NCBI RefSeq assembly: GCF_001189515.2 | Contig: NZ_CP012069.2 | Location: forward strand, 1,550,001 to 1,614,000 | DNA length: 64,000 bases | From: Olsenella sp. oral taxon 807 | Lineage (GTDB): Bacteria > Actinomycetota > Coriobacteriia > Coriobacteriales > Atopobiaceae | Direction: 5' to 3' | Part shown: positions 5,745-54,409 of the stretch, in pieces | How positions within the stretch are numbered: position 1 is the first letter of the stretch | Layout of the letters: every line of letters begins with the position of its first letter | Program-made: the position numbers and the translations under genes | The notes under the pieces: model-generated | Database searches by the model: none | What the model was told of the DNA's origin: nothing | The model's input: only the letters and a program-made list of their open reading frames with translations

Positions 5745-7028
5745 CTACGACGCAAGCCCCAGATCCTCATGCAGCTCCTTCTCCCTAGTAAGGAGGGATT
5801 CGGTGGGCATCTCGCTCTCGTCGTGTGTACGCCTGGCAGCAACGCGTACCGCATTCATGTGGGACTTGAACGGCGCACCAGTGGGATTTACGTGACTTTG
5901 ATGCTCATCCTCTCGTACCGCCGCGACGAGTCTCCTCGATACCGCTGCGTTCAGAGCGACGACCATAGCCACCCTGTCAAGTGCCCTCCTTCTGGCAGCT
6001 GCCCGACTCGCTGCAGCGGCTGCCCGACTAGCCGCAGCGCTGTCCAGTGGTTTCTGACCACCCTTGTCAGTGGACGCAGCTGACGGCCGACGTTCGGGGC
6101 AAACCTTTGGCACACGCTGCGCTATGATGGCGGCCCTCTTTCGCATCTCGAGAGTCACTGCGGAGCCCGTAGTCCTAGTGCGGGACGACGCGAGCGCGGC
6201 CTTGCCCGCCACGGAATCGGCAGCAGGTGGAATCCGAGCGACCAGCGCGGATTGTGCAGCAGCTAGGTTGGACGCACGAGCCGCCGTCTTCGTCGCAGCC
6301 ATACTAGACTCCGGCACCGTTGCCTTTGAGCCAGTTGTCACGCTCGCCGTGGTCGCATGAGCTATGGCTGAGGCTGACTGGGACTGATTGGTGACCTTCG
6401 ACGCAGTATCCAAGGATGCCGGCGTTGGCTCAACCTGACCTTCACGCGTATAGGCAGCACCTTTAAACCCAACGCTTATCAGACCGGTGCCGCTGTCCTT
6501 CACCATGCCATCGGAAGCTTTGATGACGGGCAGGCCATCGATGTTATCGCCATCCAAGCGCTCAAAGAGAACCTCCCTCACGCTCCGAGGGCTTTCGACA
6601 GCCTTCGCGGCAGGCACATTGTGAGGTTCTTCGCTGGCGACGGGGGTTACAAACTCGCCCTCGATGCCAAGCGCAAGACGCTCCACCTGGTGCTGAGACG
6701 CCATTTGATCCTTAGGGGTCATCTCCATTATAAGTGCGTCAACATCAGCGACCTGTATGTCATTCCCCACCGGCATGCTATAATCAACGACAGCGGTGCG
6801 TTCTTCGGCTTGTTCCCTCGCTTGCCTCCTTCGCCTCGATATCTTGAGGAAGACGGCGATGGCGCCTGCCGCAGCTAGGACGCCAACGGCAGCGCCGATT
6901 ACAAACTCATGCGGGAGGCCGAAAGATGTCGAGTTCGTTGCCGCATATGCGCAGCTGGGAACACTAACGGTACCAATCCCCATGAGCCCTGCCCATATCG
7001 CGGGATTTATCCTTTTTTCCGTAGACAT
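5745..7028 (-). CDS. Signal-anchored, Ala/Ser/Arg-rich protein (long paralogue)
   Basis: 427 residues. The N-terminus starts MSTEKRINPAIWAGLMGIG and ends a signal-like stretch at SCAYAAT. A second hydrophobic segment (about 40-62) is followed by an Arg-rich stop signal and a long low-complexity tail rich in Ala, Thr, Ser and Arg. A short paralogue lies at 53421-53930; both share the start, CAYA, an ALGIE motif and SVREVL..RLDGN. The start at 7028 has GGAGGTGAACGT before it. The role is unknown. Position at the edge of the glycan locus suggests an envelope-related or regulatory function, which is inference only. Confidence 0.75.
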   Translation of the reverse strand: MSTEKRINPAIWAGLMGIGTVSVPSCAYAATNSTSFGLPHEFVIGAAVGVLAAAGAIAVFLKISRRRRQAREQAEERTAVVDYSMPVGNDIQVADVDALIMEMTPKDQMASQHQVERLALGIEGEFVTPVASEEPHNVPAAKAVESPRSVREVLFERLDGDNIDGLPVIKASDGMVKDSGTGLISVGFKGAAYTREGQVEPTPASLDTASKVTNQSQSASAIAHATTASVTTGSKATVPESSMAATKTAARASNLAAAQSALVARIPPAADSVAGKAALASSRTRTTGSAVTLEMRKRAAIIAQRVPKVCPERRPSAASTDKGGQKPLDSAAASRAAAAASRAAARRRALDRVAMVVALNAAVSRRLVAAVREDEHQSHVNPTGAPFKSHMNAVRVAARRTHDESEMPTESLLTREKELHEDLGLAS

Positions 7029-7833: not shown

Positions 7834-9600
7834 CTATAACTCGACGGAGAGTCGCGCAAGCCTGCGCGCGCAGCCAACACACACCCACAGCACGACAGGG
7901 ATCAACTCGGCGAGTGCGATGGCCAACACGGCCCCCACGAGGGATGAGGCCGAGAGGAACGCCGCGTCACCTAGGTGCATGATGACAAGGAGAGCCTGAG
8001 GTGCGATGAGCGCAATGGCAAGGAAGGCACCTCCGATGATGTAGGATACGGCCGCTTTGACCCCCATGATCTGCTCCTCGCTTTCCCATGAGAGCCTGGG
8101 AAACCGCGCCCCCACGCCAAACGTCAGCATCCCAACGAGCGTCGCGTCAAGCAAAAAGAGAAGCACGAGGTAAAGTACTCTTGCCAGGGGCAGCCCAAGG
8201 ACCGCAAGCACCACCAGCAGCACTACCAGAAGCGGCAGGGTGGCAAGGGCAAGAAGGGGAAGAAGCTTTCCGATGAGGTAGGCTGTCCAGTTCATGGGAA
8301 GCGACCTGAGGTAGGCGAAGTCTCGCCCGTCTCGGCTGACCGCCGTCATATAGGTCACGGTGGAGAAGCTCGTCGTCGCCACCAGCCCCAAGACAGCGAG
8401 GGTCGAAAAATCCAGTCCCTGGGGACCCAGGGCGAGGGCGCGCAGCAGGCCGAGGATCGTGGCGGCATCCCGCCCTTGCAGCCGTGCCGTGGCGGCCAGC
8501 ACCATCATGCAGACGAAGTAAAGGGGGGCCAGCGCCTGCGTGAGAATGAACTTGTTGAAGAAATAGGCGCAGCGCACCGTCTGAAGCCAGTCACGCGCAA
8601 GGTTAGCTCCAAACTGACCTCGCTGCCTGAGGAGTCCTTTAAGGTCTGGGTTCCTCGCCCTGGCGCCCTCGCCGAGGGCTGTTCTTTTTCCCAACCCTGC
8701 CCCCATAGAACCAAGTGCCCGGACACCTGGAAGATAGAGGTGACCGGCGACATGCCAGAGCGCCATCGCCATGCCAAGCGTGAGGGCGATCATACCGACG
8801 AGCGACGCCAACGCATAGATGGGTGAACTCGAGAAGAGAGCCTCTGCCAGCAGGATAGGCGGACAGGAGACGCCCAACACCACAAGGAGCGCAGGCGCGC
8901 CCATTGCGGTGACGGTCACCTGCAACGTCATCTGTTGCAGAGAGGTAGTGCATGCGAGCTGTGGCTGCAGCCACATTCCAAAGGCAATCGTCAGCAACAT
9001 TTCCATAATACCAAAGAGTTTAGTGAAGCGATCCTTGTCACGCGCGAAGCGCGACAGACGCATCAAAAGGATGACGAGCATCGTCATGAGGAACTCTGAC
9101 GAGAGGGTAACGCACAGAACGGCCACTACCATGAGCGCGACGGTAAGAGGACCTGAGCCTGCGGCGATCGTCCAAGCAAGGACAAAGGAGAGCATGAGCG
9201 CGAAGTTGCCCGCAAAGCTCGGGAGGATAAACATCAACATGCGCGACCAGATGATCGCACCAGCATCTATGGGGAGCACAAGGTAGAAGTTGATATCACT
9301 CGTATAGTACAGCACGTTGGCCGCCTGATTCATGCCTGAGAAGAGACCCATCCACACCAATATTGCAGCCGTCAGCCTGAGTCCCGCAACCAGATCATGG
9401 CTCATAGTCCCCGCAACCACACCGACAAGAAACATGAACGCCACTCCGGCAATGAGGGGAAGCGTCGCGAGAACCTTACGCACAAGGCGGCCAGAGGCTG
9501 CAGAATCGTCACGTCTCGCATCCCCCCTGCTCATCGCCCAGAGAAGGAGCCTGAACGTGGCCCATTCTCTCCTACACCACGCGTACAATCCCCTGCACAT
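7834..9600 (-). CDS. ABC-2 type export permease
   Basis: 588 residues with about twelve to fourteen membrane spans in two halves, a soluble loop near the middle (around 305-345), and LPMNWTAYLIGKLL near 455, a pattern seen in large ABC-2-like permeases just before a membrane segment. It has no ATPase domain, so it needs a partner; the ATPase at 3278-4057 on the same strand is the obvious candidate. The start ATG at 9600 has GAGGG close upstream. It diverges from the GT-C array, with about 140 bases between the two starts. Substrate unknown. Confidence 0.75.
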   Translation of the reverse strand: MCRGLYAWCRREWATFRLLLWAMSRGDARRDDSAASGRLVRKVLATLPLIAGVAFMFLVGVVAGTMSHDLVAGLRLTAAILVWMGLFSGMNQAANVLYYTSDINFYLVLPIDAGAIIWSRMLMFILPSFAGNFALMLSFVLAWTIAAGSGPLTVALMVVAVLCVTLSSEFLMTMLVILLMRLSRFARDKDRFTKLFGIMEMLLTIAFGMWLQPQLACTTSLQQMTLQVTVTAMGAPALLVVLGVSCPPILLAEALFSSSPIYALASLVGMIALTLGMAMALWHVAGHLYLPGVRALGSMGAGLGKRTALGEGARARNPDLKGLLRQRGQFGANLARDWLQTVRCAYFFNKFILTQALAPLYFVCMMVLAATARLQGRDAATILGLLRALALGPQGLDFSTLAVLGLVATTSFSTVTYMTAVSRDGRDFAYLRSLPMNWTAYLIGKLLPLLALATLPLLVVLLVVLAVLGLPLARVLYLVLLFLLDATLVGMLTFGVGARFPRLSWESEEQIMGVKAAVSYIIGGAFLAIALIAPQALLVIMHLGDAAFLSASSLVGAVLAIALAELIPVVLWVCVGCARRLARLSVEL

Positions 9601-9738
9601 GAACCCTCGACCCTCGCATAGCTACCGTCCCACGTTTGACTGAACTATGACTGATAATATATCATGGTCGCTTATGGAAGGCGTGCCATATGGCATAGGT
9701 CGAATCCAACTGGCAGAGGGATCAGAGGAGGTTCTGTG

Positions 9739-11457
9739 ATGGAGATTCAGAAGGGCGCCGAGGCCCAGCCCTGGGAGGACCGTGGTGGGGCCGGCCCGTC
9801 GCGCTGGCTCCCGCTCGCGGCCGTCGCCCTCTGCCTCGCCGTCGCCGTGGGCTACTGCGTGGCCAAGCGGGGCTTCTTCGTGGACGAGGTCTGGTCCTAC
9901 GGCTACGCCAACAGCCACTACGCCCGCGTCCTGAGCGACGTGGCCGGCGGCGACCTCGCCGGCGCGACCCTCACCCGGCGGGACCTGCTCGACTACGTCT
10001 CGGTCGGCGAGGGCGAGCGCATGGACGCGGGCTCGGTCCTCCACAACCAAGCGCCCGACCTCCACCCGCCGCTGTTCGGCCTGGCCCTGAACGCCGCCTC
10101 GTCGCTCGCGCCGGGCGCCTGGTCCAAGTGGGCCGGCCTGGGCCTGAACCTCGCCTGCCACGCCGTCGCCCTGGTCGCGCTCTGGGCGCTGCTGCGCGAG
10201 CTCGGCTGCTCGAGGGCCGCCTGCGCCTGCGGGGTGGCGCTCTGGGGCCTCAGCCGCGCGGGGCTCTCCGACGTGCTCTACATCAGGATGTACGAGATGC
10301 TCACGGCCCTCACCGTCCTGCTCGCCCTCGAGCTCGCGGCCCTGATGCGCGAGGGCGCCTCCGGCGGGGCGCGCCGCCTGCTGCCCGCCGCCGTCGGGGC
10401 CACCGTCTTCCTCGGCCTCATGACGCAGTACTACTTCGCCATATACGCCTTCCTCGCCTGCCTGGCGGCCGGGACCCACCTGCTCAGGCGCCGGCGCCTC
10501 GGCGAGGCGGGCGCCCTGGCCGCCTGCGCCCTGGCGGGCGTGGGCCTCTTTTTGCTCGCGTGGCCGGCTGCTTTCTACAACCTGCCCGCTGGAAAGAATC
10601 CCTCGATCGCAATGTCGGGCGAAGGGGCATTTTATGCCCTGCTCAACGTCCCCGCGTGGCCCGAGAGACTCTCAACGTTCGGGAGGATGATAATACAGGC
10701 TCTGCCCGCTGTAATTTTAGTGTGGCTGCTCTCGGCATGGGGAACCATACGTTCCAAGCAGGAGGTCCACGCTGGGGATAACACATTCGAGGATACCCTC
10801 CTGACGTCACATATCCGTAACATCATCCTGCCCGCTTTTCTCTACCTCCTCATTATTGCCCTCATAGCTCTTTTTGAGGAACCAAGATTTATCTATAATA
10901 TTTGCCCCCTGATCTCGGCAGCCGCAGCAGTGTCCTTAGACGCATGGTTCCGTTCAATGCCTCAAGAAACGCGTAGCCGTCAGATCAAGGTCGTTATCGG
11001 AGCGCTTACCGCAGTATTGCTCATCTTCGCTATATTCTACAAGCCTGCTTACCTCGGGGAGGAAGCCTATGCGCAACAAGAGGCTGTGGTGCCCTACGCT
11101 GCCGACCCCTGCGTCTACATTGTTGGACGAGGGAAGACCACAGACAGTGCGAATCTCTCCATCACCGCAGACGTACCGCAGCTTCTAGAGTTCGAGGACG
11201 TCCACTTGGAGACAGACCCCACCTCGGCGGGCATCGCCGCCTACCTCGCGTCCAAGGGCAACCCCGACGAGATAGTGCTCTACGTCGACACAGTTACGTA
11301 TCCTAACCATGTCAACTATGGAGACACCACATCGCTTGACAGCGAGGCGATATCGGACCTGGTGGCAAAACGTTTGGGATACTCACGAAAGACGCTCATA
11401 GAGCGTGTGGGTCCTGATGCGCCAGTTCTATCCGAGGCATACCTGCTCAGGCGCTAG
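9739..11457 (+). CDS. GT-C membrane glycosyltransferase, array copy 1
   Basis: 572 residues; ATG at 9739 behind AGAGGAGG. After the first span comes the catalytic-type loop with FVDEVWSY (Asp49, Glu50) and LHPPL (108-112), hallmarks of PMT/GT39-type polyprenyl-phosphate-sugar-dependent transferases; about ten spans follow, then an outer C-terminal domain of about 120 residues. The first half, from 9787, is nearly base-for-base identical to copies 2-5. From about 10570 the sequence becomes AT-richer and unique. This copy alone has YARVL and HNQAPD in the catalytic loop. It probably transfers a sugar outside the membrane; the sugar is unknown. Confidence 0.85.
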   Translation: MEIQKGAEAQPWEDRGGAGPSRWLPLAAVALCLAVAVGYCVAKRGFFVDEVWSYGYANSHYARVLSDVAGGDLAGATLTRRDLLDYVSVGEGERMDAGSVLHNQAPDLHPPLFGLALNAASSLAPGAWSKWAGLGLNLACHAVALVALWALLRELGCSRAACACGVALWGLSRAGLSDVLYIRMYEMLTALTVLLALELAALMREGASGGARRLLPAAVGATVFLGLMTQYYFAIYAFLACLAAGTHLLRRRRLGEAGALAACALAGVGLFLLAWPAAFYNLPAGKNPSIAMSGEGAFYALLNVPAWPERLSTFGRMIIQALPAVILVWLLSAWGTIRSKQEVHAGDNTFEDTLLTSHIRNIILPAFLYLLIIALIALFEEPRFIYNICPLISAAAAVSLDAWFRSMPQETRSRQIKVVIGALTAVLLIFAIFYKPAYLGEEAYAQQEAVVPYAADPCVYIVGRGKTTDSANLSITADVPQLLEFEDVHLETDPTSAGIAAYLASKGNPDEIVLYVDTVTYPNHVNYGDTTSLDSEAISDLVAKRLGYSRKTLIERVGPDAPVLSEAYLLRR

Positions 11458-11553
11458 ACCGTCAACGCCGGCCATGGGGACGGGACGGCGCGCCACAGCG
11501 CCCGCCGGCCGGGCGGCGGGCACCGCGCCCACATCCGAAGGAGGGAGTTCGCT
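11458..11553 (+). repeat. Duplicated 96-bp spacer between copies 1 and 2
   Basis: Almost identical to 13273-13368. It contains a GC-rich imperfect hairpin (GCCCGCC...GGCGGGC) followed by the ribosome-binding site GAAGGAGGGAG of the next gene. The hairpin may act as an attenuator or an mRNA stabiliser. Its conservation shows that the duplication unit included the spacer as well as the gene. Confidence 0.8.
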
Positions 11554-13272
11554 ATGAGGAACACGGGGCCAGGGGGCAAGGGCACGGACGCAGGCGGCGG
11601 GGCCGGCCCGTCGCGCTGGCTCCCGCTCGCGGCCGTCGCCCTCTGCCTCGCCGTCGCCGTGGGCTACTGCGTGGCCAAGCGGGGCTTCTTCGTGGACGAG
11701 GTCTGGTCCTACGGCTACGCCAACAGCCACTACGCCCCCTTCCTGAGCGACGTGGCCGGCGGCGACCTCGCCGGCGCGACCCTCACCCGGCGGGACCTGC
11801 TCGACTACGTCTCGGTCGGCGAGGGCGAGCGCATGGACGTCGGCTCTGTCCTCCACAACCAGGAGGGGGACCTCCACCCGCCGCTGTTCGGCCTGGCCCT
11901 GAACGCCGCCTCGTCGCTCGCGCCGGGCGCCTGGTCCAAGTGGGCCGGCCTGGGCCTGAACCTCGCCTGCCACGCCGTCGCCCTGGTCGCGCTCTGGGCG
12001 CTGCTGCGCGAGCTCGGCTGCTCGAGGGCCGCCTGCGCCTGCGGGGTGGCGCTCTGGGGCCTCAGCCGCGCGGGGCTCTCCGACGTGCTCTACATCAGGA
12101 TGTACGAGATGCTCACGGCCCTCACCGTCCTGCTCGCCCTCGAGCTCGCGGCCCTGATGCGCGAGGGCGCCTCCGGCGGGGCGCGCCGCCTGCTGCCCGC
12201 CGCCGTCGGGGCCACCGTCTTCCTCGGCCTCATGACGCAGTACTACTTCGCCATATACGCCTTCCTCGCCTGCCTGGCGGCCGGGACCCACCTGCTCAGG
12301 CGCCGGCGCCTCGGCGAGGCGGGCGCCCTGGCCGCCTGCGCCCTGGCGGGCGTGGGCCTCTTTTTGCTCGCGTGGCCGGCCGCCCTCGCGCACCTGGGGG
12401 CCCATAACAGCTCGTCAGGCGTATCTGGCGGGGACGCCCTGACCAGATTTGTCGATCTCGCGGCATGGCCCGAGAAGTTCTCTCAGTTCGGAGAATATAT
12501 TATAAGGGATATGTCCATTGCCATAGCGTGGCTGCTCTCGGCCTGGATCGCTGTTCACCTAGGCCGACGTAAGACCCAAGTCCCCACGACTGAGCGCGAT
12601 GGCACGTCGTCGATCATCGTCGCAATCCTCGTGCCTGTACCCATAGTCATCATCCTCATCATCATAATTGCTCCTTACCTCTCACCGAGGTACCTCTACA
12701 GTTCCCTCCCACTGGTCGCGGCCGGGACCGCCCTGTCGCTGGACACATGGTTTCGACAGATACCAGAAAGCCAACGACGCCGCAAAGTCATATTTGTGAC
12801 CGGGACAACTATGGCAGTGCTGCTTCTCTTATGTGTCGTAATGAAACCTATGTATCTTGGTGACTATGAGTATGCGCAGCGAAAGACTGTGGCACCCTAC
12901 GCCGCTGGACCCTGTGTCTATCTCATCAAGCGAGGGTACACCGATGCTGGCTTGGCGAATCTCTCCATCACTGCCGACATGTTGCAACTCATGGAGTTCG
13001 AGGACGTCCACGTGGAGACAGATCCAGCCTCGGCGGGCATCGCCGCCTACCTCGCGTCCAAGGGAGACCCCGACGAGGTGGTGCTCTACGTAGACGTGTC
13101 TGGCACCACCAGCACCCGGGCGGGCGAGGGGACCGCCAGCACCCGGGCGGGCGAGGGGACCGCGAGGGAGGTTGCGGGGAGGCTTGGCTACTCCAGGTGT
13201 ACGTACGTCAAGGGCTTCTCGGGCGCCGATAACGGATACAACTCATCCGAGACCTACCTGCTCGGGCGCTAG
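11554..13272 (+). CDS. GT-C membrane glycosyltransferase, array copy 2
   Basis: 572 residues, start ATG at 11554 behind AAGGAGGGAG. Same architecture as copy 1: first span, FVDEVWSY, LHPPL, many spans, outer C-terminal domain. Catalytic-loop variant YAPFL with MDVGS, the same combination as copy 5. The middle part (from about 12385) is AT-richer and unique. The C-terminal end matches copy 4 (TADMLQLMEFEDVH, STRAGEGTA) but contains one extra 9-residue tandem repeat. Predicted to use a polyprenyl-phosphate sugar donor at the outer membrane face; specificity unknown. Confidence 0.85.
   Translation: MRNTGPGGKGTDAGGGAGPSRWLPLAAVALCLAVAVGYCVAKRGFFVDEVWSYGYANSHYAPFLSDVAGGDLAGATLTRRDLLDYVSVGEGERMDVGSVLHNQEGDLHPPLFGLALNAASSLAPGAWSKWAGLGLNLACHAVALVALWALLRELGCSRAACACGVALWGLSRAGLSDVLYIRMYEMLTALTVLLALELAALMREGASGGARRLLPAAVGATVFLGLMTQYYFAIYAFLACLAAGTHLLRRRRLGEAGALAACALAGVGLFLLAWPAALAHLGAHNSSSGVSGGDALTRFVDLAAWPEKFSQFGEYIIRDMSIAIAWLLSAWIAVHLGRRKTQVPTTERDGTSSIIVAILVPVPIVIILIIIIAPYLSPRYLYSSLPLVAAGTALSLDTWFRQIPESQRRRKVIFVTGTTMAVLLLLCVVMKPMYLGDYEYAQRKTVAPYAAGPCVYLIKRGYTDAGLANLSITADMLQLMEFEDVHVETDPASAGIAAYLASKGDPDEVVLYVDVSGTTSTRAGEGTASTRAGEGTAREVAGRLGYSRCTYVKGFSGADNGYNSSETYLLGR
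13111..13164 (+). repeat. 27-bp in-frame tandem duplication inside copy 2
   Basis: Two copies of a 27-base unit (13111-13137, 13138-13164), differing only at the last base, encode STRAGEGTA twice. Copy 4 has the unit once at the same place. It keeps the frame and lies in the outer C-terminal domain, so slippage changes loop length by nine residues. Confidence 0.9.
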
Positions 13273-13368
13273 GTCGTCAACACCGGCCATGGGGACGGGA
13301 CGGCGCGCCACAGCGCCCGCCGGCCGGGCGGCGGGCACCGCGCCCACATCCGAAGGAGGGAGTTTGCT
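13273..13368 (+). repeat. Duplicated 96-bp spacer between copies 2 and 3
   Basis: Second copy of the spacer at 11458-11553, differing at only a few positions, with the same GC-rich hairpin and ribosome-binding site. The spacers between copies 3-4 and 4-5 are different and shorter. Confidence 0.8.
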
Positions 13369-15066
13369 ATGAGGAACATGGGGCCAGGGGGCAAGGGCAC
13401 GGACGCGGGCGGCGGGGCCGGCCCGTCGCGCTGGCTCCCGCTCGCGGCCGTCGCCCTCTGCCTCGCCGTCGCCGTGAGCTACTGCGTGGCCAAGCGGGGC
13501 TACTACTTGGACGAGGTCTGGTCCTACGGCTACGCCAACAGCCACTACGCTCCTCTGCTGAGCGACGTGGCCGGCGGCGACCTCGCCGGCGCGACCCTCA
13601 CCCGGCGGGACCTGCTCGACTACGTCTCGGTCGGCGAGGGCGAGCGCATGGACGCGGGCTCTGTCCTCCACAACCAGGAGGGGGACCTCCACCCGCCGCT
13701 GTTCGGCCTGGCCCTGAACGCCGCCTCGTCGCTCGCGCCGGGCGCCTGGTCCAAGTGGGCCGGCCTGGGCCTGAACCTCGCCTGCCACGCCGTCGCCCTG
13801 GTCGCGCTCTGGGCGCTGCTGCGCGAGCTCGGCTGCTCGAGGGCCGCCTGCGCCTGCGGGGTGGCGCTCTGGGGCCTCAGCCGCGCGGGGCTCTCCGACG
13901 TGCTCTACATCAGGATGTACGAGATGCTCACGGCCCTCACCGTCCTGCTCGCCCTCGAGCTCGCGGCCCTGATGCGCGAGGGCGCCTCCGGCGGGGCGCG
14001 CCGCCTGCTGCCCGCCGCCGTCGGGGCCACCGTCTTCCTCGGCCTCATGACGCAGTACTACTTCGCCATATACGCCTTCCTCGCCTGCCTGGCGGCCGGG
14101 ACCCACCTGCTCAGGCGCCGGCGCCTCGGCGAGGCGGGCGCCCTGGCCGCCTGCGCCCTGGCGGGCGTGGGCCTCCTTCTGCTCGCGTGGCCGGCCGCCC
14201 TCGCGCACCTGGGGGCGGGGGGCGCCGGCGCCACGCCGGGCACGTCGGGCCAGGGGGCGCTCGCCGCCCTGCTCTACGTCCCCGCGTGGCCCTTGAGTCT
14301 TTTGTGGTACGGCCTGAACACCCTGAAGGACATGGTCGTCGCGATCCTGGCGTGGGCGCTCTCGGCGTGGGCGCGCATCCGCCTCGGGCACGGCGAGGGC
14401 GGTCGCGAGGGGGAGGCCGGGGGCGACGGCGGCGCGTCGTCGGTCGTCGTCGCGTCCATCGCGCCGGGGCTGCTCACCCTCGTCCTCGTCTCCCTAGCGG
14501 TTCCTCACCTCTCAATGAGGTACCTCTACAGCTCCTGCCCGATGGTCGCGGCCGGGGCCGCCCTGTCGCTGGACGCCTGGCTGCGCCGCCAGCCCGGGGG
14601 GCGGGGCCGCCTGGCAGCCCTCGCGGCCCTGGCGATGGTGGCGGCGCTTTTCGCCTTCGACGTCGTGATGCCACCAGTCTCCCTCGGGGAGGAGTACGCC
14701 CGACAGCGGGAGCTCATGGCACCCTACACCGCCGACCCCTGCGTCTATCTGGTGGGAAGCTCGTACCAAGAGCCTGCGGATAACAACTACTCCATCACCT
14801 CCGACGTACCGCAGCTCATGGAGTTCGAGGACGTCCACGTGGAGAAGGACCCCGCCTCTGCGGGCATCGCCGCCTACCTCGCGTCCAAGGGCAACCCCGA
14901 CGAGGTGGTGCTCTACGTCGATGTATACCCGCAAAGCAGCACGCTCAACGGTGAGGAGACCGCAGCCGAAGTCGCACGATCGTTCGGCTACCACGATCGA
15001 GAGCTTATCCAAAGCTCGGAGGTGGCTGGCTACAGCTCGTCCGAGACCTATCTGCTCAGGCGCTAG
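13369..15066 (+). CDS. GT-C membrane glycosyltransferase, array copy 3
   Basis: 565 residues, start at 13369 behind AAGGAGGGAG. Differs from the other copies just before the catalytic loop: SYCVAKRGYYLDEVW, where the others have GYCVAKRGFFVDEVW. Loop variant YAPLL with MDAGS, as in copy 4. The middle part is the GC-rich version shared with copies 4 and 5 (GATPGTSGQGALAALLYVP), with an extra DGG-type insertion in the cytoplasmic loop near residue 345. The C-terminal domain has its own end (SSEVAGYSSSETYLLRR). Predicted outer-face sugar transferase; donor and acceptor unknown. Confidence 0.85.
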   Translation: MRNMGPGGKGTDAGGGAGPSRWLPLAAVALCLAVAVSYCVAKRGYYLDEVWSYGYANSHYAPLLSDVAGGDLAGATLTRRDLLDYVSVGEGERMDAGSVLHNQEGDLHPPLFGLALNAASSLAPGAWSKWAGLGLNLACHAVALVALWALLRELGCSRAACACGVALWGLSRAGLSDVLYIRMYEMLTALTVLLALELAALMREGASGGARRLLPAAVGATVFLGLMTQYYFAIYAFLACLAAGTHLLRRRRLGEAGALAACALAGVGLLLLAWPAALAHLGAGGAGATPGTSGQGALAALLYVPAWPLSLLWYGLNTLKDMVVAILAWALSAWARIRLGHGEGGREGEAGGDGGASSVVVASIAPGLLTLVLVSLAVPHLSMRYLYSSCPMVAAGAALSLDAWLRRQPGGRGRLAALAALAMVAALFAFDVVMPPVSLGEEYARQRELMAPYTADPCVYLVGSSYQEPADNNYSITSDVPQLMEFEDVHVEKDPASAGIAAYLASKGNPDEVVLYVDVYPQSSTLNGEETAAEVARSFGYHDRELIQSSEVAGYSSSETYLLRR

Positions 15067-15103
15067 GCTATTCAGCCTCATCGGAACAGAGAAAGGAAGT
15101 TTC

Positions 15104-16789
15104 ATGGGAACGGGACGGGAGGAGCATTCGACGGGAGGACGGCAGTGTCTACCCGAGTTTGGGCGATCATGGCTCCCGCTCGCGGCCGTCGCCCTCTGCC
15201 TCGCCGTCGCCGTGGGCTACTGCGTGGCCAAGCGGGGCTTCTTCGTGGACGAGGTCTGGTCCTACGGCTACGCCAACAGCCACTACGCTCCTCTGCTGAG
15301 CGACGTGGCCGGCGGCGACCTCGCCGGCGCGACCCTCACCCGGCGGGACCTGCTCGACTACGTCTCGGTCGGCGAGGGCGAGCGCATGGACGCGGGCTCG
15401 GTCCTCCACAACCAGGAGGGGGACCTCCACCCGCCGCTGTTCGGCCTGGCCCTGAACGCCGCCTCGTCGCTCGCGCCGGGCGCCTGGTCCAAGTGGGCCG
15501 GCCTGGGCCTGAACCTCGCCTGCCACGCCGTCGCCCTGGTCGCGCTCTGGGCGCTGCTGCGCGAGCTCGGCTGCTCGAGGGCCGCCTGCGCCTGCGGGGT
15601 GGCGCTCTGGGGCCTCAGCCGCGCGGGGCTCTCCGACGTGCTCTACATCAGGATGTACGAGATGCTCACGGCCCTCACCGTCCTGCTCGCCCTCGAGCTC
15701 GCGGCCCTGATGCGCGAGGGCGCCTCCGGCGGGGCGCGCCGCCTGCTGCCCGCCGCCGTCGGGGCCACCGTCTTCCTCGGCCTCATGACGCAGTACTACT
15801 TCGCCATATACGCCTTCCTCGCCTGCCTGGCGGCCGGGACCCACCTGCTCAGGCGCCGGCGCCTCGGCGAGGCGGGCGCCCTGGCCGCCTGCGCCCTGGC
15901 GGGCGTGGGCCTCCTTCTGCTCGCGTGGCCGGCCGCCCTCGCGCACCTGGGGGCGGGGGGCGCCGGCGCCACGCCGGGCACGTCGGGCCAGGGGGCGCTC
16001 GCCGCCCTGCTCTACGTCCCCGCGTGGCCCTTGAGTCTTTTGTGGTACGGCCTGAACGCCCTGAAGGACATGGTCGTCGCGATCCTGGCGTGGGCGCTCT
16101 CGGCGTGGGCGCGCATCCGCCTCGGGCACGGCGAGGGCGGTCGCGAGGGGGAGGCCGGGGGCGCGTCGTCGGTCGTCGTCGCGTCCGTCGCGCCGGGGCT
16201 GCTCACCCTCGTCCTCGTCTCCCTAGCGGTTCCTCACCTCTCAATGAGGTACCTCTACAGCTCCTGCCCGATGGTCGCGGCCGGGGCCGCCCTGTCGCTG
16301 GACGCCTGGCTGCGCCGCCAGCCCGGGGGGCGGGGCCGCCTGGCAGCCCTCGCGGCCCTGGCGATGGTGGCGGCGCTTTTCGCCTTCGACGTCGCGATGC
16401 CACCAGTCTCCCTCGGGGAGGAGTACGCCCGACAGCGGGAGCTCATGGCACCCTACACCGCCGACCCCTGCGTCTATGTACTGGGCCGCGAGTCGAGCGA
16501 CGCTGGTTCCATCGTTGCCGACATGTTGCAGCTCATGGAGTTCGAGGACGTCCACGTGGAGACAGACCCCGCCTCGGCGGGCATCGCCTCCTACCTCGCG
16601 TCCAAGGGCAACCCCGACGAGGTGGCGCTCTACGTAGACGTGTCTGGCACCACCAGCACCCGGGCGGGCGAGGGGACCGCGAGGGAGGTTGCGGGGAGGC
16701 TTGGCTACTCCAGGTGTACGTACGTCAAGGGCTACATGGGCGCCGGCGACGGGTACAACTTGTCCGAGACCTACCTGCTCGAACGCTAG
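15104..16789 (+). CDS. GT-C membrane glycosyltransferase, array copy 4
   Basis: 561 residues from the ATG at 15104, which has AAAGGAAG just upstream; an in-frame extension back to 14921 would overlap copy 3 and is not used. The first 25 residues are unrelated to the other copies, and the shared block begins at SWLPLAAVALC. Loop variant YAPLL with MDAGS, as in copy 3. The middle is the GC-rich version. The C-terminal end resembles copy 2, with a single STRAGEGTA unit. Like the others, it carries the Asp-Glu pair and LHPPL expected of a polyprenyl-phosphate-sugar-dependent transferase. Confidence 0.85.
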   Translation: MGTGREEHSTGGRQCLPEFGRSWLPLAAVALCLAVAVGYCVAKRGFFVDEVWSYGYANSHYAPLLSDVAGGDLAGATLTRRDLLDYVSVGEGERMDAGSVLHNQEGDLHPPLFGLALNAASSLAPGAWSKWAGLGLNLACHAVALVALWALLRELGCSRAACACGVALWGLSRAGLSDVLYIRMYEMLTALTVLLALELAALMREGASGGARRLLPAAVGATVFLGLMTQYYFAIYAFLACLAAGTHLLRRRRLGEAGALAACALAGVGLLLLAWPAALAHLGAGGAGATPGTSGQGALAALLYVPAWPLSLLWYGLNALKDMVVAILAWALSAWARIRLGHGEGGREGEAGGASSVVVASVAPGLLTLVLVSLAVPHLSMRYLYSSCPMVAAGAALSLDAWLRRQPGGRGRLAALAALAMVAALFAFDVAMPPVSLGEEYARQRELMAPYTADPCVYVLGRESSDAGSIVADMLQLMEFEDVHVETDPASAGIASYLASKGNPDEVALYVDVSGTTSTRAGEGTAREVAGRLGYSRCTYVKGYMGAGDGYNLSETYLLER

Positions 16790-16876
16790 GTCGCTAGAAC
16801 GTAACAGCTGGGCTGGCCCTGCCGGAAGGATAGGTGTTTGACCCGTCGAGCGCGACGGGCGTGGAAGGGAGACATC

Positions 16877-18565
16877 ATGGAAGAGAACCGAACGAAGAGC
16901 CCGATGCAGGACGGCGGGGCCGGCCCGTCGCGCTGGCTCCCGCTCGCGGCCGTCGCCCTCTGCCTCGCCGTCGCCGTGGGCTACTGCGTGGCCAAGCGGG
17001 GCTTCTTCGTGGACGAGGTCTGGTCCTACGGCTACGCCAACAGCCACTACGCCCCCTTCCTGAGCGACGTGGCCGGCGGCGACCTCGCCGGCGCGACCCT
17101 CACCCGGCGGGACCTGCTCGACTACGTCTCGGTCGGCGAGGGCGAGCGCATGGACGTCGGCTCTGTCCTCCACAACCAGGAGGGGGACCTCCACCCGCCG
17201 CTGTTCGGCCTGGCCCTGAACGCCGCCTCGTCGCTCGCGCCGGGCGCCTGGTCCAAGTGGGCCGGCCTGGGCCTGAACCTCGCCTGCCACGCCGTCGCCC
17301 TGGTCGCGCTCTGGGCGCTGCTGCGCGAGCTCGGCTGCTCGAGGGCCGCCTGCGCCTGCGGGGTGGCGCTCTGGGGCCTCAGCCGCGCGGGGCTCTCCGA
17401 CGTGCTCTACATCAGGATGTACGAGATGCTCACGGCCCTCACCGTCCTGCTCGCCCTCGAGCTCGCGGCCCTGATGCGCGAGGGCGCCTCCGGCGGGGCG
17501 CGCCGCCTGCTGCCCGCCGCCGTCGGGGCCACCGTCTTCCTCGGCCTCATGACGCAGTACTACTTCGCCATATACGCCTTCCTCGCCTGCCTGGCGGCCG
17601 GGACCCACCTGCTCAGGCGCCGGCGCCTCGGCGAGGCGGGCGCCCTGGCCGCCTGCGCCCTGGCGGGCGTGGGCCTCCTTCTGCTCGCGTGGCCGGCCGC
17701 CCTCGCGCACCTGGGGGCGGGGGGCGCCGGCGCCACGCCGGGCACGTCGGGCCAGGGGGCGCTCGCCGCCCTGCTCTACGTCCCCGCGTGGCCACAGAGT
17801 CTCCTACAGTCTGGCCGATACGCCCTGAAGGACATGGTCGTCGCGATCCTGGCGTGGGCGCTCTCGGCGTGGGCGCGCATCCGCCTCGGGCACGGCGAGG
17901 GCGGTCGCGAGGGGGAGGCCGGGGGCGCGTCGTCGGTCGTCGTCGCGTCCGTCGCGCCGGGGCTGCTCACCCTCGTCCTCGTCTCCCTGGTGGCTCCTTT
18001 TCTCTCGGCGAGGTACCTCTACAGCTCCTGCCCGATGGTCGCGGCCGGGGCCGCCCTGTCGCTGGACGCCTGGCTGCGCCGCCAGCCCGGGGGGCGGGGC
18101 CGCCTGGCAGCCCTCGCGGCCCTGGCGATGGTGGCGGCGCTTTTCGCCTTCGACGTCGCGATGCCGCCGGCCTACCTCGGGGAGGAGGACGCCCGACAGC
18201 GGGAGCTCATCGCACCCTACGCCGCCGACCCCTGCGTCTACCTGGTTAATCGAGGAGATGAAGGGGTTGGTTGGGCGAATCTCTCCATCACCGCAGACGT
18301 ACCGCAGCTCCTGGAGTTCGAGGACGTCCACGTGGAGAAGGACCCCGCCTCTGCGGGCATCGCCGCCTACCTCGCGTCCAAGGGCACCCCCGACGAGGTG
18401 GTGCTCTACGTTGACATGTATAACGCTCCTAGCAACCGGACGGGTGAGGAAAACGCAAGAGAGGTTGCGGGGAAGCTTGGCTACTCCAGGTGTACGTACG
18501 TCAAGGGCTACATGGGCGCCAACGAGGGCTATATCTCGTCCGAGACCTACCTGCTCGAGCGCTAG
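16877..18565 (+). CDS. GT-C membrane glycosyltransferase, array copy 5
   Basis: 562 residues from the ATG at 16877 behind GGAAGGGAG. Loop variant YAPFL with MDVGS, as in copy 2, but the middle is the GC-rich version of copies 3-4 with a changed segment (WPQSLLQSGRYALKD) and a different loop before ARYLYSS. The C-terminal part mixes features of copy 1 (NLSITADVPQLLEFEDVH) and copies 2/4 (CTYVKGYMGA). It is followed after 45 bases by the flippase gene on the same strand, so the whole array and the flippase may form one transcription unit. Confidence 0.85.
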   Translation: MEENRTKSPMQDGGAGPSRWLPLAAVALCLAVAVGYCVAKRGFFVDEVWSYGYANSHYAPFLSDVAGGDLAGATLTRRDLLDYVSVGEGERMDVGSVLHNQEGDLHPPLFGLALNAASSLAPGAWSKWAGLGLNLACHAVALVALWALLRELGCSRAACACGVALWGLSRAGLSDVLYIRMYEMLTALTVLLALELAALMREGASGGARRLLPAAVGATVFLGLMTQYYFAIYAFLACLAAGTHLLRRRRLGEAGALAACALAGVGLLLLAWPAALAHLGAGGAGATPGTSGQGALAALLYVPAWPQSLLQSGRYALKDMVVAILAWALSAWARIRLGHGEGGREGEAGGASSVVVASVAPGLLTLVLVSLVAPFLSARYLYSSCPMVAAGAALSLDAWLRRQPGGRGRLAALAALAMVAALFAFDVAMPPAYLGEEDARQRELIAPYAADPCVYLVNRGDEGVGWANLSITADVPQLLEFEDVHVEKDPASAGIAAYLASKGTPDEVVLYVDMYNAPSNRTGEENAREVAGKLGYSRCTYVKGYMGANEGYISSETYLLER

Positions 18566-18610
18566 GCCTCTCTGATGTCAATGACGAAAACTACCAGATG
18601 AGAGGTTTCG

Positions 18611-19918
18611 GTGAGGTTCGACAAACCCATACAAGAGGGCGTCATGAGGTCCGCCTACCTCTGGAACACCGTGAGTGGCCTGCTCATGGCGTTCCAGAGC
18701 GTCATCGTGGTCATCGTGATAAGCCATGTCTGCGACGCGACGGCAGCGGGCGTCTTCACGCTGGCCTATGCGCACGCCAACCTCTTCCTCACCATAGGGA
18801 AGTGGGGGGAGCGGGCATACCAGGCCTCAGACACTACGGGAGAGTACTCCTTCGCGGAGTATGGCGTCTCACGCATCGCGACGAGCCTCCTCATGCTCGC
18901 CTTAGGCGCAGCGCTGCTCGCCCTCAACGCCGCGAGCGTCGGCTACTCGCCCGACAAGACGGCAGTTATCTTCCTCATGCTGCTGTTCAAGCTCGTAGAC
19001 TGCGTCGAGGACGTGTACCACGGGGAGTATCAGCGCGAGGGCAGGCTCGATGTGGCAGGCAAGGTCCTGACGGCGCGCCTTCTGACCACGGTCGCCCTCT
19101 ATGTCGCGGCCATTATCATCCTGCGTGACCAGCTCCCTGCCCTAGCCTTAGCCACGGCCTACACGACCCTCTTCGCCGTCTGCGAGTGCATCTGGGCACG
19201 GCTCCGCCACAAGCTGCCCCAGCCAGGACAGGGGTTCTTGCCTGGAAAGGTGGGCAGGCTGCTCCTCGCCTGCTTCGCGCTCGCGCTCGTCACCTCCCTC
19301 CAGTATTACCTCACCAACGCCCCCAAGTATGCGATCGACGCGAGGCTGGATGACCTGCATCAGGCCTATTATGGCTACCTCGCCATGCCGACCTTCGTCG
19401 TGAGCATGCTGTCGAGCTTCATATACAACCCCAACCTCACTCCCCTCGGCCTGAGCTGGGCACGACATGACGTGAGGGCCTTCAGCTCCACCATCAGGCG
19501 CATCATCGCCTTGATCGTCGCCATCACGATAGCCTGCGACGTCGCGGCCGCCATCCTCGGCATTCCCATCCTGAGCGCGCTCTATGCCGCCGACCTCTCG
19601 CCTTATGTGGTCGAGCTCGTCGTGCTAGTGACAGGTGGGGGCTTTCTTGCCGTCGCGATGCTCCTCACCTCCGTCATGGCGATCATGCGAAGGCAGAACA
19701 GCCTGATCGTGGGCAACGTCATCGCCGCCGCGCTCGCTGCGCTGCTCTGCCCCGTCGCGACGGAGCTCTTTGGCATCACGGGTGCCGCATGGTCCTACCT
19801 CGCCACAATGGTTTTGCTCGTAATCTCGTTTCTTGTGCCCTATTCGCACGAGCTCTCACGTGCCCGTGAGAGTAGTGCTGAGGAAAGCCAGCTACCAAAG
19901 CCGCTGGCAAGGGACTGA
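18611..19918 (+). CDS. Wzx-type polysaccharide flippase (first)
   Basis: 435 residues, GTG start at 18611 behind AGAGG. About twelve hydrophobic segments in the pattern of the MOP/MATE-related polysaccharide exporters (Wzx), beginning MRSAYLWNTVSGLLMAFQS with the typical first-helix Asn. It would move lipid-linked sugars from the inner to the outer face of the membrane. Placed directly after the five GT-C genes, it could supply polyprenyl-linked donors to them or export the repeating unit. A second Wzx-like protein is encoded at 43048-44517. Confidence 0.85.
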   Translation: MRFDKPIQEGVMRSAYLWNTVSGLLMAFQSVIVVIVISHVCDATAAGVFTLAYAHANLFLTIGKWGERAYQASDTTGEYSFAEYGVSRIATSLLMLALGAALLALNAASVGYSPDKTAVIFLMLLFKLVDCVEDVYHGEYQREGRLDVAGKVLTARLLTTVALYVAAIIILRDQLPALALATAYTTLFAVCECIWARLRHKLPQPGQGFLPGKVGRLLLACFALALVTSLQYYLTNAPKYAIDARLDDLHQAYYGYLAMPTFVVSMLSSFIYNPNLTPLGLSWARHDVRAFSSTIRRIIALIVAITIACDVAAAILGIPILSALYAADLSPYVVELVVLVTGGGFLAVAMLLTSVMAIMRRQNSLIVGNVIAAALAALLCPVATELFGITGAAWSYLATMVLLVISFLVPYSHELSRARESSAEESQLPKPLARD

Positions 19919-20110
19919 GGGTGGGCTAACTTTGCTTCCTCCCTTTCTGGTCTGAGCTCCGTTTGACCACGAGCAGGTAACACCCTGCATCACCACATGA
20001 CACGGCCACGTTAACCACTGCCCTGCCGAAGCTCGCGCCAAGGATACCCGACTAAAACAGGCACTCGTGACCCGGTGCCGAGAGACGAAGCAGGACCTCA
20101 CCAAAACGGG

Positions 20111-21115
20111 CTACTCGCGCGGCCCCTCACCCTTCCTTGGCCTGTCAGCTGGCCAGTTGAGGCGTTCCTCCTCGACGACGAGCGGCCGCTTCATGGTACG
20201 CGAGTTGATCGTGAGGACATACTCCCCCAGAAGTCCTATGAAGAAGGTCTGCGTAGACCCGATCAAAAGGACCAAGATGACCAGAGGTGCCATACCCGCC
20301 GCATACTGGTTCCAGTTCAAGAGCTTCAAGACAAGAAATACCACCGCAAGCAGGAGGGTAATGGCCGAGACGACAAAGCCGCCTATCGTCGCCAGCCTTA
20401 GGGGCACCTTGGTATAGCTCGTGAAGGAGAGCATAGCGGCATCATAGAGGGTCGTGAAGCTGTTGTGCGTCTTGCCGGCTCGCCTGCCTGCCTGGCGATA
20501 CGGTATGTCCTTGCGGTTGGCAGGACCAAGCTCCGCGACAATGCCACGAAGGAAGGGTTGGGGATCGTCGAGGTCCTTGAGGACTTGTATGAAGCGTTGG
20601 TCATAGAGTCCCGTCCCAGTGAAGTGCTCGATCTGACTCACGTCGCTCATCTTGCGGATAAGCTTGTAGTAGCAGGTCCTGAGCAGGCGTAGCACCCTAC
20701 CCTCATCTGAGTTCGTCTTGATGGCAGAGACGACCGTATGCCCCTCCTCCCAAGCGTGAACGAACTTGGGGATGAGGTCGACAGGATCCTGGAAATCGCA
20801 GCAGATGGTGATGACCGCATCGCCGTCCGCCTGACACATGCCATAGAACGGGGAGTTGAACTGCCCAAAGTTGCGAGAGTTGAGGATCACGCGGGTGCGC
20901 TCGTCCTGGGCACACAGAAGGCGCAGCTTATCACGGGTGCCATCCGTGGAGCAGTTGTCGATGAAGATGATGTCATAGTCGTAGCCGGGCAGCGCCTTCG
21001 CGAACTGCTCTGTGATCGCGTCATGCATGGGTATGACATTATCGGCCTCGTTGTAGCAAGGTACCACCACCGAGATCTTCCTAGCTTCCCCACCCTGATC
21101 CGCCTCGTCAACCAT
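20111..21115 (-). CDS. GT2 polyprenyl-phosphate sugar transferase (GtrB/DPM-like)
   Basis: 334 residues from the ATG at 21115 behind AGGGGG. GT-A glycosyltransferase with SVVVPCYNEADN at the start, FIDNCSTDGT, and CCDFQDP, the form of the metal-binding region typical of DPM1/GtrB enzymes. Two C-terminal membrane spans end in GLLGEYVLTI, as in GtrB-type proteins. Such enzymes load a nucleotide sugar onto polyprenyl phosphate. Last gene of the CDP-sugar operon; its start lies 2 bases after the stop of the reductase gene. Inference: it may supply the lipid-linked donor used by the GT-C array. Confidence 0.88.
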   Translation of the reverse strand: MVDEADQGGEARKISVVVPCYNEADNVIPMHDAITEQFAKALPGYDYDIIFIDNCSTDGTRDKLRLLCAQDERTRVILNSRNFGQFNSPFYGMCQADGDAVITICCDFQDPVDLIPKFVHAWEEGHTVVSAIKTNSDEGRVLRLLRTCYYKLIRKMSDVSQIEHFTGTGLYDQRFIQVLKDLDDPQPFLRGIVAELGPANRKDIPYRQAGRRAGKTHNSFTTLYDAAMLSFTSYTKVPLRLATIGGFVVSAITLLLAVVFLVLKLLNWNQYAAGMAPLVILVLLIGSTQTFFIGLLGEYVLTINSRTMKRPLVVEEERLNWPADRPRKGEGPRE

Positions 21116-21116
21116 C

Positions 21117-22040
21117 CTACCCCCTGCACCACTTGATGGTCCGGTCAATCCCCTCATCAAACGATACGGTCGGGCTGAAGCCGGTGTCTTCCGTAAGAGA
21201 CCGTATATCCGCTCTCAGATGCATGACCTGCTTGTCGTAGTATGGGATCGCGCCCAGCTTAGGAACGGCCCCGGTGGCGCAAGCATCGCATATCTGCCAG
21301 ATGAGATCAGCCAAGGGCCTGCATGTGCCACTCCCCACTGGGTAGACATAACCAGATCTACCACCATGTGCCATGGCCAACAGTGCTCTACCGCAGTCAT
21401 CAGCATAGAGATAGTCCCAAAGCTGCTCCCCCTTCGTGCAAGGTGGGTCGACACCTCGCAGGGCATCTCTGATCACATTCATGACCATGGTGTGGGGGGC
21501 ATCCCCCGGACCATACACGCTCAGAATGCGAGACCACACATGGTCCATACCAACGCGCTCGCACACAAGCCTCGTCATTTGACATGAGGCTTGCTTGGCT
21601 ATGCCATATCCCGTCTCGGGCACCCCGACCATGTTTACGGTGATGTCTCCATCAACGCGACCACACTCCGCCTGAGACCCAGCTCCGACAAAGACACGAC
21701 ATCCAAGGCGACTTGCGAGCTGGGCGGCCGCCACGGCATAGCCAATGTTTGCGGTCTGGAGCTGTGCGTCATCACGAACTGGACCCGCCGACCCTGCCCA
21801 TGCAATATGGAAGAAGGCGTCACAGGGTTCGATCTGAGAGGTATCAAGTTGGGCAAGGGAGCTCAACTCGCACTCAAGCTGGGACACCCCCTCATTATCA
21901 GGGAGGTTTCCCATGCGCCTGGAGTGAGGTCGAACGGCGGCGATGACCTCCATCCCCTCTTCCAAGCATGCACGCACAACAGACGAGCCGACCATGCTGG
22001 TCGCACCCGTGACGAACGCGCGCCTGATATCGCGACTCAT
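21117..22040 (-). CDS. NAD(P)-dependent sugar-nucleotide epimerase/reductase
   Basis: 307 residues, extended short-chain dehydrogenase with the nucleotide-binding turn VTGATSMVGSS near residue 10 and a YGIAK (YxxxK) catalytic pair. The ATG at 22040 has GGGAG upstream and lies 4 bases after the HAD gene. In pathways making CDP-3,6-dideoxyhexoses or yersiniose, a final SDR reduces a keto group; by position this could be that enzyme (CDP-abequose/paratose synthase-like or YerF-like). The exact substrate cannot be read from the sequence. Confidence 0.8.
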   Translation of the reverse strand: MSRDIRRAFVTGATSMVGSSVVRACLEEGMEVIAAVRPHSRRMGNLPDNEGVSQLECELSSLAQLDTSQIEPCDAFFHIAWAGSAGPVRDDAQLQTANIGYAVAAAQLASRLGCRVFVGAGSQAECGRVDGDITVNMVGVPETGYGIAKQASCQMTRLVCERVGMDHVWSRILSVYGPGDAPHTMVMNVIRDALRGVDPPCTKGEQLWDYLYADDCGRALLAMAHGGRSGYVYPVGSGTCRPLADLIWQICDACATGAVPKLGAIPYYDKQVMHLRADIRSLTEDTGFSPTVSFDEGIDRTIKWCRG

Positions 22041-22044
22041 ACGA

Positions 22045-22707
22045 TCATCTCCCACATGCAGCAATTAGCTCGTCAGTGTCCATAACGACGCGCTCGATCC
22101 TAGGGTCACGGTAAAGCTCATCGGTCCCCTGACCCCAAGCGACCACAACGCAGCCTACCCCCGCGTTGCTGGCCGTATCTACATCGATGCGAGTGTCACC
22201 GACGTACAGCGTCTCGGCGGGAGTCACCTTGGCCTTAGTCATGAGCCATCGTGCGCCCTCGGGATCGGGCTTGGCGCTTTTGATCCCAACGTTGCCATAG
22301 CCGGAAACTAAAAGAGGCAGGCCCCTGAAGAACCTATCCATCAGCCTGACAAGGTTATCATGGGGCTTGTTGCTGTTCACCGCAATTTGCATGCCGCTGT
22401 CGAGCAGCTGTCGCAGGGCCTTGCTAACTCCTGGATAAGGACGGGTCCTTGACTTGGGAGAAGACGCATATGTCTTCCGATAGGCCTGCGAGACCGCCGT
22501 GACAGCGGCGTCTTCTCTTGCGACGTCCGGAGGAAGGATGCCCCTGACGATCTCCTCAAGGGGCTTTCCCAGCTGCGCAGACACGCCCTCGAGCGTGCTC
22601 GAGGGGTAACCTGCGGCCACCAACGCCTGATTGAAGCACTCAGCCACGTCCTCGACGGTATCTACCAGCGTCCCATCGGCATCAAATATGACAAGGCGTC
22701 TACTCAC
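22045..22707 (-). CDS. HAD-superfamily phosphatase
   Basis: 220 residues, GTG start at 22707 behind GGGAGG. HAD motif I FDADGTLVDT (Asp9, Asp11), motif II VNSNKP, and motif III/IV around KPDPEGARW and VGDTRIDVDTA. Looks like a phosphoglycolate phosphatase-type small-molecule phosphatase. Sits between the aldolase and the reductase in a minus-strand operon, so it may remove phosphate from a precursor of the branched sugar. That role is a guess from context. Confidence 0.88.
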   Translation of the reverse strand: MSRRLVIFDADGTLVDTVEDVAECFNQALVAAGYPSSTLEGVSAQLGKPLEEIVRGILPPDVAREDAAVTAVSQAYRKTYASSPKSRTRPYPGVSKALRQLLDSGMQIAVNSNKPHDNLVRLMDRFFRGLPLLVSGYGNVGIKSAKPDPEGARWLMTKAKVTPAETLYVGDTRIDVDTASNAGVGCVVVAWGQGTDELYRDPRIERVVMDTDELIAACGR

Positions 22708-27873: not shown

Positions 27874-27874
27874 G

Positions 27875-28663: not shown

Positions 28664-28822
28664 ATCATCCAATCTTCCACCTGTGCTGTCAGAAGCATAG
28701 CTGTATGTACCCGCCCACACGAGAGCATAAACAAAACTGAACATTTACTCCATGTGGAGAGTATAGTGAGCGGACCGAACGGTACCATATACCCACCCGG
28801 ATACAGCAAAACGGCACCGCCG

Positions 28823-28933: not shown

Positions 28934-30007
<1,074 letters not shown>

Positions 30008-32354: not shown

Positions 32355-32475
32355 GATACTTTCCTTCGTACACCGCCTTGCCCACCAGATATGCAGCATA
32401 GACCACCCAAGATCCCCACCGTATTAAGTAAGATGCAAAAACACAAGTCTCTGTTAGACACAGCTTCCCTCATCA

Positions 32476-50123: not shown

Positions 50124-50134
50124 GATGAAAACTC

Positions 50135-52062
<1,928 letters not shown>

Positions 52063-53930: not shown

Positions 53931-54409
53931 ATACACACCTCCAACAACCTTTATACCCACTATTGTATGTTCAGATATTCACAATATAACTGATGCTAAA
54001 TTTAGTACCAATATATCGGTGCTTTCTCCATAAATATGAATCTCTTGGCATGATTGCTGCTGAGGGGGCGCGGAACAAACCAGGCCGACGGATAAGTTAG
54101 GCCTCACGCCGTCGAACTCCCTCGCGCTGTTGGTGATCGTTCTGTCGCTCTCGAACCCATCGAGGTTGCGAGGTAGGGTTCCTTGACCAGCAGGGCTCTG
54201 TCGCCTTTGGGACTAGATCAGCGCATCGCCCCCAGCGAACGCGTACACACCCGCCAAGAGCACGGTCTTGTAGCCATCAACGTCGACGCAAGCGTCAGAC
54301 CCAGGCCACGCGCGGCCTGCCCTCACGAACGAGCCTTGATCGCTCTACGGACCCTCTATGAGGGCATATCGCAGGCTGGAAAGAACTGCACAGGCGTACG
54401 AGAAGGGAC
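53931..54409. other. Promoter region and non-coding or decayed stretch
   Basis: The first ~100 bases are AT-rich and should hold the promoter of the 53930 gene. From 54060 to 54400 the sequence is GC-rich; short minus-strand pieces such as RTITNSAREFDGVRP and YKTVLLAGVYAFAGGDALI look protein-like but are broken by stops. I see no intact gene. Confidence 0.45.

Follow-up and report, generated by a model that had tools for sequence, protein, structure and literature searches.

The window analysed here is a stretch of 64,000 nucleotides from Olsenella sp. oral taxon 807 (G000:C1:1550001-1614000; the source genome is one contig of 3.21 Mb, 99.4% complete), in which five intact, co-directional genes span positions 9736-18565 of the + strand and encode predicted GT-C glycosyltransferases, hereafter called copies A to E. 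Copy A extends from 9736 (GTG) or 9739 (ATG) to 11457 and has a tail that is unique from codon ~282; copy B (11554-13272) has the same core as copy E, a unique middle and a terminal part in common with copy D. The middle of copy C (13369-15066) is common to D and E, and this gene has its own patch (YYL) in the loop after the first transmembrane helix (TM1), abbreviated as EL1, as well as its own C-terminus. Copy D (15104-16789) combines its own first 27 codons with the middle common to C/E and the terminal part common to B, while copy E (16877-18565) has the middle common to C/D bar three short patches. The 5' ~785 bp are 98-99% identical in the closest pairs, the best pairwise blocks covering 785-892 bp at 94-99% identity, and all five copies have in common, without a single difference, a block of 492 nt that ends at TM7 (A 10057-10548, B 11869-12360, C 13684-14175, D 15422-15913, E 17186-17677). 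An earlier note on this DNA had described five consecutive genes with a near-identical 5' block and variable 3' parts; the first of these statements is confirmed, whereas the second is correct as to divergence (synonymous divergence, dS, up to 1.7) and needs amending in that the 3' parts form a mosaic, with C/D/E, B/D and A/E tracts, and are not uniformly variable. The A-B spacer (11458-11553, 78% G+C) is identical to the B-C spacer (13273-13368, 76% G+C) at 92 of 96 positions, and the remaining spacers differ from this pair. A search of the same genome recovered these five copies and no sixth. A hairpin resembling a terminator, with a T run, lies inside A (10522-10545) and B (12334-12357) at the end of the constant block; the T run is absent in C, D and E.

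Predicted fold and distribution of the transferases

Pfam is nearly silent on the five proteins, giving one weak Glyco_transf_22 match (copy A), and a sequence profile compared with PDB sequences produced no match at E<=0.01. The fold was first hinted at by a model of poor quality (pLDDT 58), and an AlphaFold model of copy E built on 19 aligned sequences (pLDDT 82, pTM 0.87) has leading structural matches in the PDB that are all GT-C enzymes. ArnT is the top Foldseek match (E 6e-6), and STT3, ArnT, Pmt4 and ALG12 match the model at Z 24-27 (ArnT Z 26.8 over nearly the full length, Pmt4 Z 25). The proteins resemble ArnT (GT83; PDB 5F15/5EZM) also in length and in an aligned C-terminal extramembrane domain; this likeness is one of fold only, at 12-13% identity, STT3, ALG12 and Pmt4 score about as high, and a lipid A acceptor would not be expected in the source organism. 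Against the assignment it must be said that the Foldseek TM-scores are modest (query-normalised <0.5). On the strength of the predicted structure and its matches, the five proteins are placed in the GT-C superfamily (GT-CA type), which bears out the GT-C identity proposed in the earlier note. Its narrower attribution to the PMT/GT39 type is not supported: none of the five copies matches the Pfam models PMT or PMT_2 (the latter matches 3 of the 19 aligned family sequences) and the fold matches are spread over ArnT, Pmt4, STT3 and ALG12.

The conserved module of GT-C enzymes ends at TM7, and in the copy E model the constant block ends at E267, within a long helix (251-271) that is counted as TM7. 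The few core variants, in copy E numbering, affect residue 35 in TM1 and residues 43-45, 59-61, 94-96 and 101-103 in EL1, where the variant patches sit beside the conserved D46-E47, invariant in 19/19 aligned sequences, and D104-x-H106-P-P.

Four further species of the genus that were examined yielded no homologue. Of 139 other genomes of the family, two carry one homologue each, with 30-35% identity, and within the order a single profile match was obtained in 14 of 396 other genomes, every relative giving one copy in a search that scored three candidates per genome and could thus report up to three. The IMG/VR search returned no relative. Since relatives carry none or one copy, the array represents, within the limits of this sampling, a rare gene that has been amplified locally; the copy-number comparison proposed in the earlier note thus places it in none of the sampled relatives.

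Mosaic ancestry and base composition

Between copies, dS computed with NG86 is 0-0.03 over codons 28-275, then 0.73-1.7 over codons 276-460 for pairs with A or B and 0.007-0.09 among C, D and E, in which this segment is nearly intact, and finally 0.22-0.91 over codons 461-585. Judged by the dS of A or B against the others in codons 276-460, the tails look old and the core does not, so that either the core has been homogenised or the tails have been replaced. Further tracts interrupt the divergent parts: codons 527-569 are common to B/D (73 consecutive polymorphic sites, permutation p=0.0005), codons 480-492 are common to A/E, and over codons 501-520 all pairs are once more 87-98% alike. The shared tracts (C/D/E, B/D, A/E, B/E) conflict in ancestry, which shows recombination among the copies. 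In the constant half, the differences are few and clustered (p=0.0002), lying at codons 43, 51-53, 67-69, 102-104 and 109-111. Synonymous identity in shared tracts, conflicting tracts and a divergent remainder are thus found together, as in concerted evolution, and the shared halves appear, from this sequence pattern, to be kept identical by copying between neighbouring genes. The dS contrast and the conflicting tracts support the earlier view that the array recombines, with one catalytic half preserved as the remaining parts diversify. The differences between copies are not adenine-specific, and no reverse transcriptase of a diversity-generating retroelement was seen among the open reading frames scanned, which were part of all those present.

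The base composition of the array, which the earlier note did not consider and which should be of most interest to specialists, follows the pattern of sharing. The G+C content at third codon positions (GC3) of codons 112-275 is 0.99 in all five copies, and that of the middle is 0.57-0.69 in A and B and 0.91-0.96 in C, D and E; the mean of genes sampled from the same genome is 0.74. When copies were compared in 20-codon windows, counting for each the other copies with >95% identity, GC3 was 0.72, 0.90, 0.977, 0.979 and 0.993 for zero to four other copies sharing the window. The relation holds at matched positions (within-window permutation of copies, p about 1e-4), and the observed correlation is not attained by any of 28 rotations. 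It is found at non-coding sites too, the shared spacers having 76-78% G+C versus 46-63% in the others. In 14 single-copy homologues, GC3 differs little between the N- and C-terminal halves (by 0.11 at most), which means that the protein as such does not account for the split. The G/A/R/P residue content of the core is 0.39, versus 0.14-0.33 in the N-terminal half of these homologues.

A weaker trend of the same kind is seen in a second tandem array of the genome (G000:C1:987094-1005440; loci L053, L029), in which identity and GC3 are correlated (rho 0.57, p=0.002); this array was found during a search for high-GC3 genes and is therefore not an unbiased sample. It consists of three large tandem genes, tubulin-like by eye and 83-87% identical. 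Among all genes sampled from 715 kb of stretches of the genome, those with a nucleotide paralogue have a median GC3 of 0.76 versus 0.73 for the rest (p=0.009), a small shift in a set that includes many spurious open reading frames.

We tentatively propose, while holding it slightly more doubtful than probable, that the tandem paralogues undergo GC-biased gene conversion, which would drive GC3 up to ~0.99 and alter the composition of the proteins, the more so the more copies have a segment in common. This is our preferred reading, though unproven, because GC3 is graded with copy number, because the spacers and the second array agree with it, and because no closer relative of the core turned up in the genomes drawn from class and phylum. 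In bacteria, the argument for GC-biased gene conversion has drawn mainly on comparisons of strains (PMC4450053), the study cited using recombination among strains (the words 'paralog', 'multigene' and 'multi-copy' are absent from its text), whereas the present case concerns segments of tandem genes in one genome. The likeness lies in recombining or mutually converting sequences being richer in G+C, as is also reported for the mutually converting sequences of primate X palindromes (PMC8981503). If the reading is true, the array constitutes a natural within-genome test of a disputed process: the same genes of one genome differ in their degree of sharing, their base composition lends itself to comparison at matched positions, and the pattern may reveal a bias in copying that is otherwise difficult to detect in bacteria.

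Several observations weigh against biased conversion. Minority variants in the shared blocks have no polarity towards G/C, with 3 changes from G/C to A/T against 1 in the opposite direction in the core and 12 against 15 in C/D/E. Dispersed repeats of 300-400 bp, mostly 81-88% alike, are not GC-rich (0.59-0.67), and the segment at 46539-48221 has no Pfam match and, within the genome, one weak partial match only and no close second copy. These non-GC-rich repeats and this single-copy GC-rich segment mean that the multicopy state and high G+C do not coincide genome-wide. Moreover, the species is represented by one genome, so that conversion is read from that single assembly, and the GC windows are not mutually independent, the p-values being approximate and guides only; the contrasts were picked after the GC3 table had been seen. 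As to the elements just mentioned, the dispersed repeats look non-coding (for example G000:C1 501183-501692, 1017809-1018453 and 2012056-2012493), and the segment at 46539-48221, of ~1.7 kb and up to 80% G+C, is open in several frames and is possibly a decayed mobile gene.

The main rival to biased conversion is an imported cassette: a GC-rich gene would have been acquired and recently multiplied, and the tails of A and B, as well as parts of C-E, would have been replaced from ordinary-GC alleles of other strains, G+C content then marking origin with no need of bias. The neutral polarity of minority variants and the dispersed repeats of ordinary composition speak for such an import, as do the unshared windows, whose GC3 of 0.72 is near the sampled mean, and the GC-rich mobile or recombining genes of the genome itself (GC3 0.95-0.97 in transposase copies, 0.90-0.93 in prophage-like genes). 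The import thus fits the data too, and we consider it possible though less likely than not, since GC3 is graded with sharing and not two-state, the second tandem array has the same trend, the nearest relatives of the core lie in the same order at 40-45% identity, none closer was found in draws of ~400 genomes of the class and ~400 of the phylum, and locus L007 is among the closest to both core and tails. An identical transposase-like gene with GC3 0.96-0.97 is present in at least four places of the genome (L026:5948-7606, 12246-13904 and 18472-19968; G000:C1:1803758-1805416).

A recent origin of the copies by tandem duplication, with no conversion and with rapid positive selection afterwards that was confined to the acceptor side, would account for the near-identity of C and D over codons 28-460 and for the core and D/E differences forming clustered patches, yet it is very unlikely: the tails of A and B, with dS of 0.7-1.7 against 0-0.03 in the core, already disfavour it, the shared tracts conflict, and GC3 shifts abruptly at codon 276.

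Neighbouring genes and a putative surface-decoration system

Directly 3' of copy E lies the gene of a Wzx/MATE-type flippase (18611-19918, + strand), a candidate carrier of a polyprenyl-phosphate sugar. Its own sequence gives no significant match in Pfam or NCBIfam, and the protein is placed in a Polysacc_synt-like family through homologues with 42-46% identity that match PF01943; it could serve a repeat unit instead. The next gene, on the opposite strand (20111-21160), encodes a GtrB/ArnC-type polyprenyl-phosphate sugar synthase (GtrB sll0501, E 3e-37; PHROG GtrB-like, E 6e-56), the candidate donor enzyme. Both neighbours that the earlier note had named are thus found to adjoin the array, the flippase being recognised through its homologues. 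The GtrB-type gene is the last of a - strand run that comprises an NAD-dependent epimerase/reductase of a sugar operon (21117-22064), a HAD phosphatase (22045-22707), an HpcH/HpaI-like lyase with a score just over the curated cut-off (22749-23531), a thiamine-pyrophosphate carboligase-like enzyme that is a candidate for a sugar-branching step (23588-25402), RfbH or CDP-4-keto-6-deoxyglucose 3-dehydrase (25406-26752; 685.6 bits, cut-off 423), RfbG or CDP-glucose 4,6-dehydratase (26752-27906; 399.5 bits, cut-off 278) and RfbF or glucose-1-phosphate cytidylyltransferase (27875-28744; 346.8 bits, cut-off 300). The run with RfbF, RfbG, RfbH and the carboligase presumably yields a CDP-3,6-dideoxyhexose, probably branched, and from the position of its gene the GtrB-type enzyme may load this sugar. 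In five of eight single-copy homologue loci examined (L006, L039, L042, L043 and L044), the GT-C gene likewise has a GtrB-like gene at a distance of no more than ~0.5 kb.

These elements could be combined in a GtrB-flippase-GT-C decoration system with a transferase amplified fivefold and a core homogenised by GC-biased conversion, a reading that we hold as readily as we doubt it. GtrB would load one sugar, probably the CDP-derived and branched 3,6-dideoxyhexose, onto polyprenyl phosphate, the flippase would export the lipid-linked sugar, and five GT-C enzymes, expressed together and alike in their donor-binding and catalytic module but not in their acceptor-facing parts, would attach it outside the membrane at different acceptor positions. 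Gene conversion of the RecA type between neighbours would keep the 5' module nearly identical, selection would keep the acceptor-facing parts different, and a bias of conversion towards G/C would raise the G+C content of a stretch as more copies share it. Two points temper this proposal: the pairing of the GT-C enzymes with GtrB rests on gene position, and the arrangement of one donor with five transferases for different acceptor sites, probable as it seems to us, includes an acceptor difference that is a prediction. The array separates the conserved and variable parts of GT-C enzymes unusually cleanly, with one catalytic module, several acceptor-facing parts and one likely donor in an operon-like arrangement, so that acceptor determinants could be mapped by comparing natural variants.

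The mycobacterial EmbA, EmbB and EmbC are GT-C paralogues that use one polyprenyl-phosphate donor and different acceptors. They match the copy E model with Z about 16-18 and are much larger than the array proteins, and we know of no homogenised core among them. Three-component systems are on record in which a GT-C transferase acts together with a flippase, of MATE type in one case, and a synthase of the polyprenyl-phosphate sugar (PMC11127046). The GtrA/GtrB/Gtr systems of O-antigen side chains and the pentofuranose/GT136 systems (PMC11127046) agree with the present locus in these components, the flippase of the locus being a candidate, and the pentofuranose version also in its MATE-type flippase, whereas the locus has one GtrB beside five tandem transferases that have their catalytic half in common, and the donor is predicted from a CDP-dideoxysugar operon. 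In Streptococcus mutans, SccN/SccP with SccM/SccQ provide a case of several GT-C enzymes adding an undecaprenyl-phosphate-linked sugar to different hydroxyls of one rhamnan, although two transferases are there paired with two donor synthases and the available part of that source describes no converted tandem array (PMC11754754). The type of system, which the earlier note did not recognise as described, is therefore a known one (PMC11127046, PMC11754754), and the fivefold converted transferase is its new part; our literature search for converted tandem GT-C arrays turned up only loosely related work.

A sigma-70-like promoter (TTGACT-18-TATCAT, 9636-9665, + strand) lies upstream of A and is the only + strand match in 9400-18800, where two promoter-like sites were found on both strands against 0.5 expected. 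Five intact reading frames, this single site and the fact that no recombinase or phase-variable tract was seen (no homopolymers >=7 or short tandem repeats were found in the array) make the simultaneous action of five enzymes likelier. We favour co-expression over cassette switching on the evidence of one assembly, which cannot show the state of a population, and for the same reasons the surface-glycan variation that the earlier note envisaged is not supported as a switch within a culture. Silent-cassette antigenic variation, with one expressed transferase and the others as a sequence store, would fit the mosaic tails and the lone promoter-like site upstream of A, but is highly improbable, given that the copies are all complete, closely spaced and co-directional, that one transcript could cover them all, and that no recombinase or truncated store copies were seen. 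An assembly artefact, in which mis-mapped reads smoothed out core differences, can practically be dismissed: the identical block of 492 bp is longer than short reads and the sequencing method is not stated, but the genome is a single, nearly complete contig, every copy has unique flanks and the clustered core differences survive in the assembly.

Two dTDP-rhamnose gene sets with RmlC-RmlD fusions (28934-32406 and 48648-52062), with 68-72% nucleotide identity, flank the polysaccharide region and could recombine. Related signal-peptide proteins (STEKRINPAIWAGL.. and AKKRVSPAILVGL..) are encoded on the - strand at either end of the same region, at 5745-7028 and 53421-53960.

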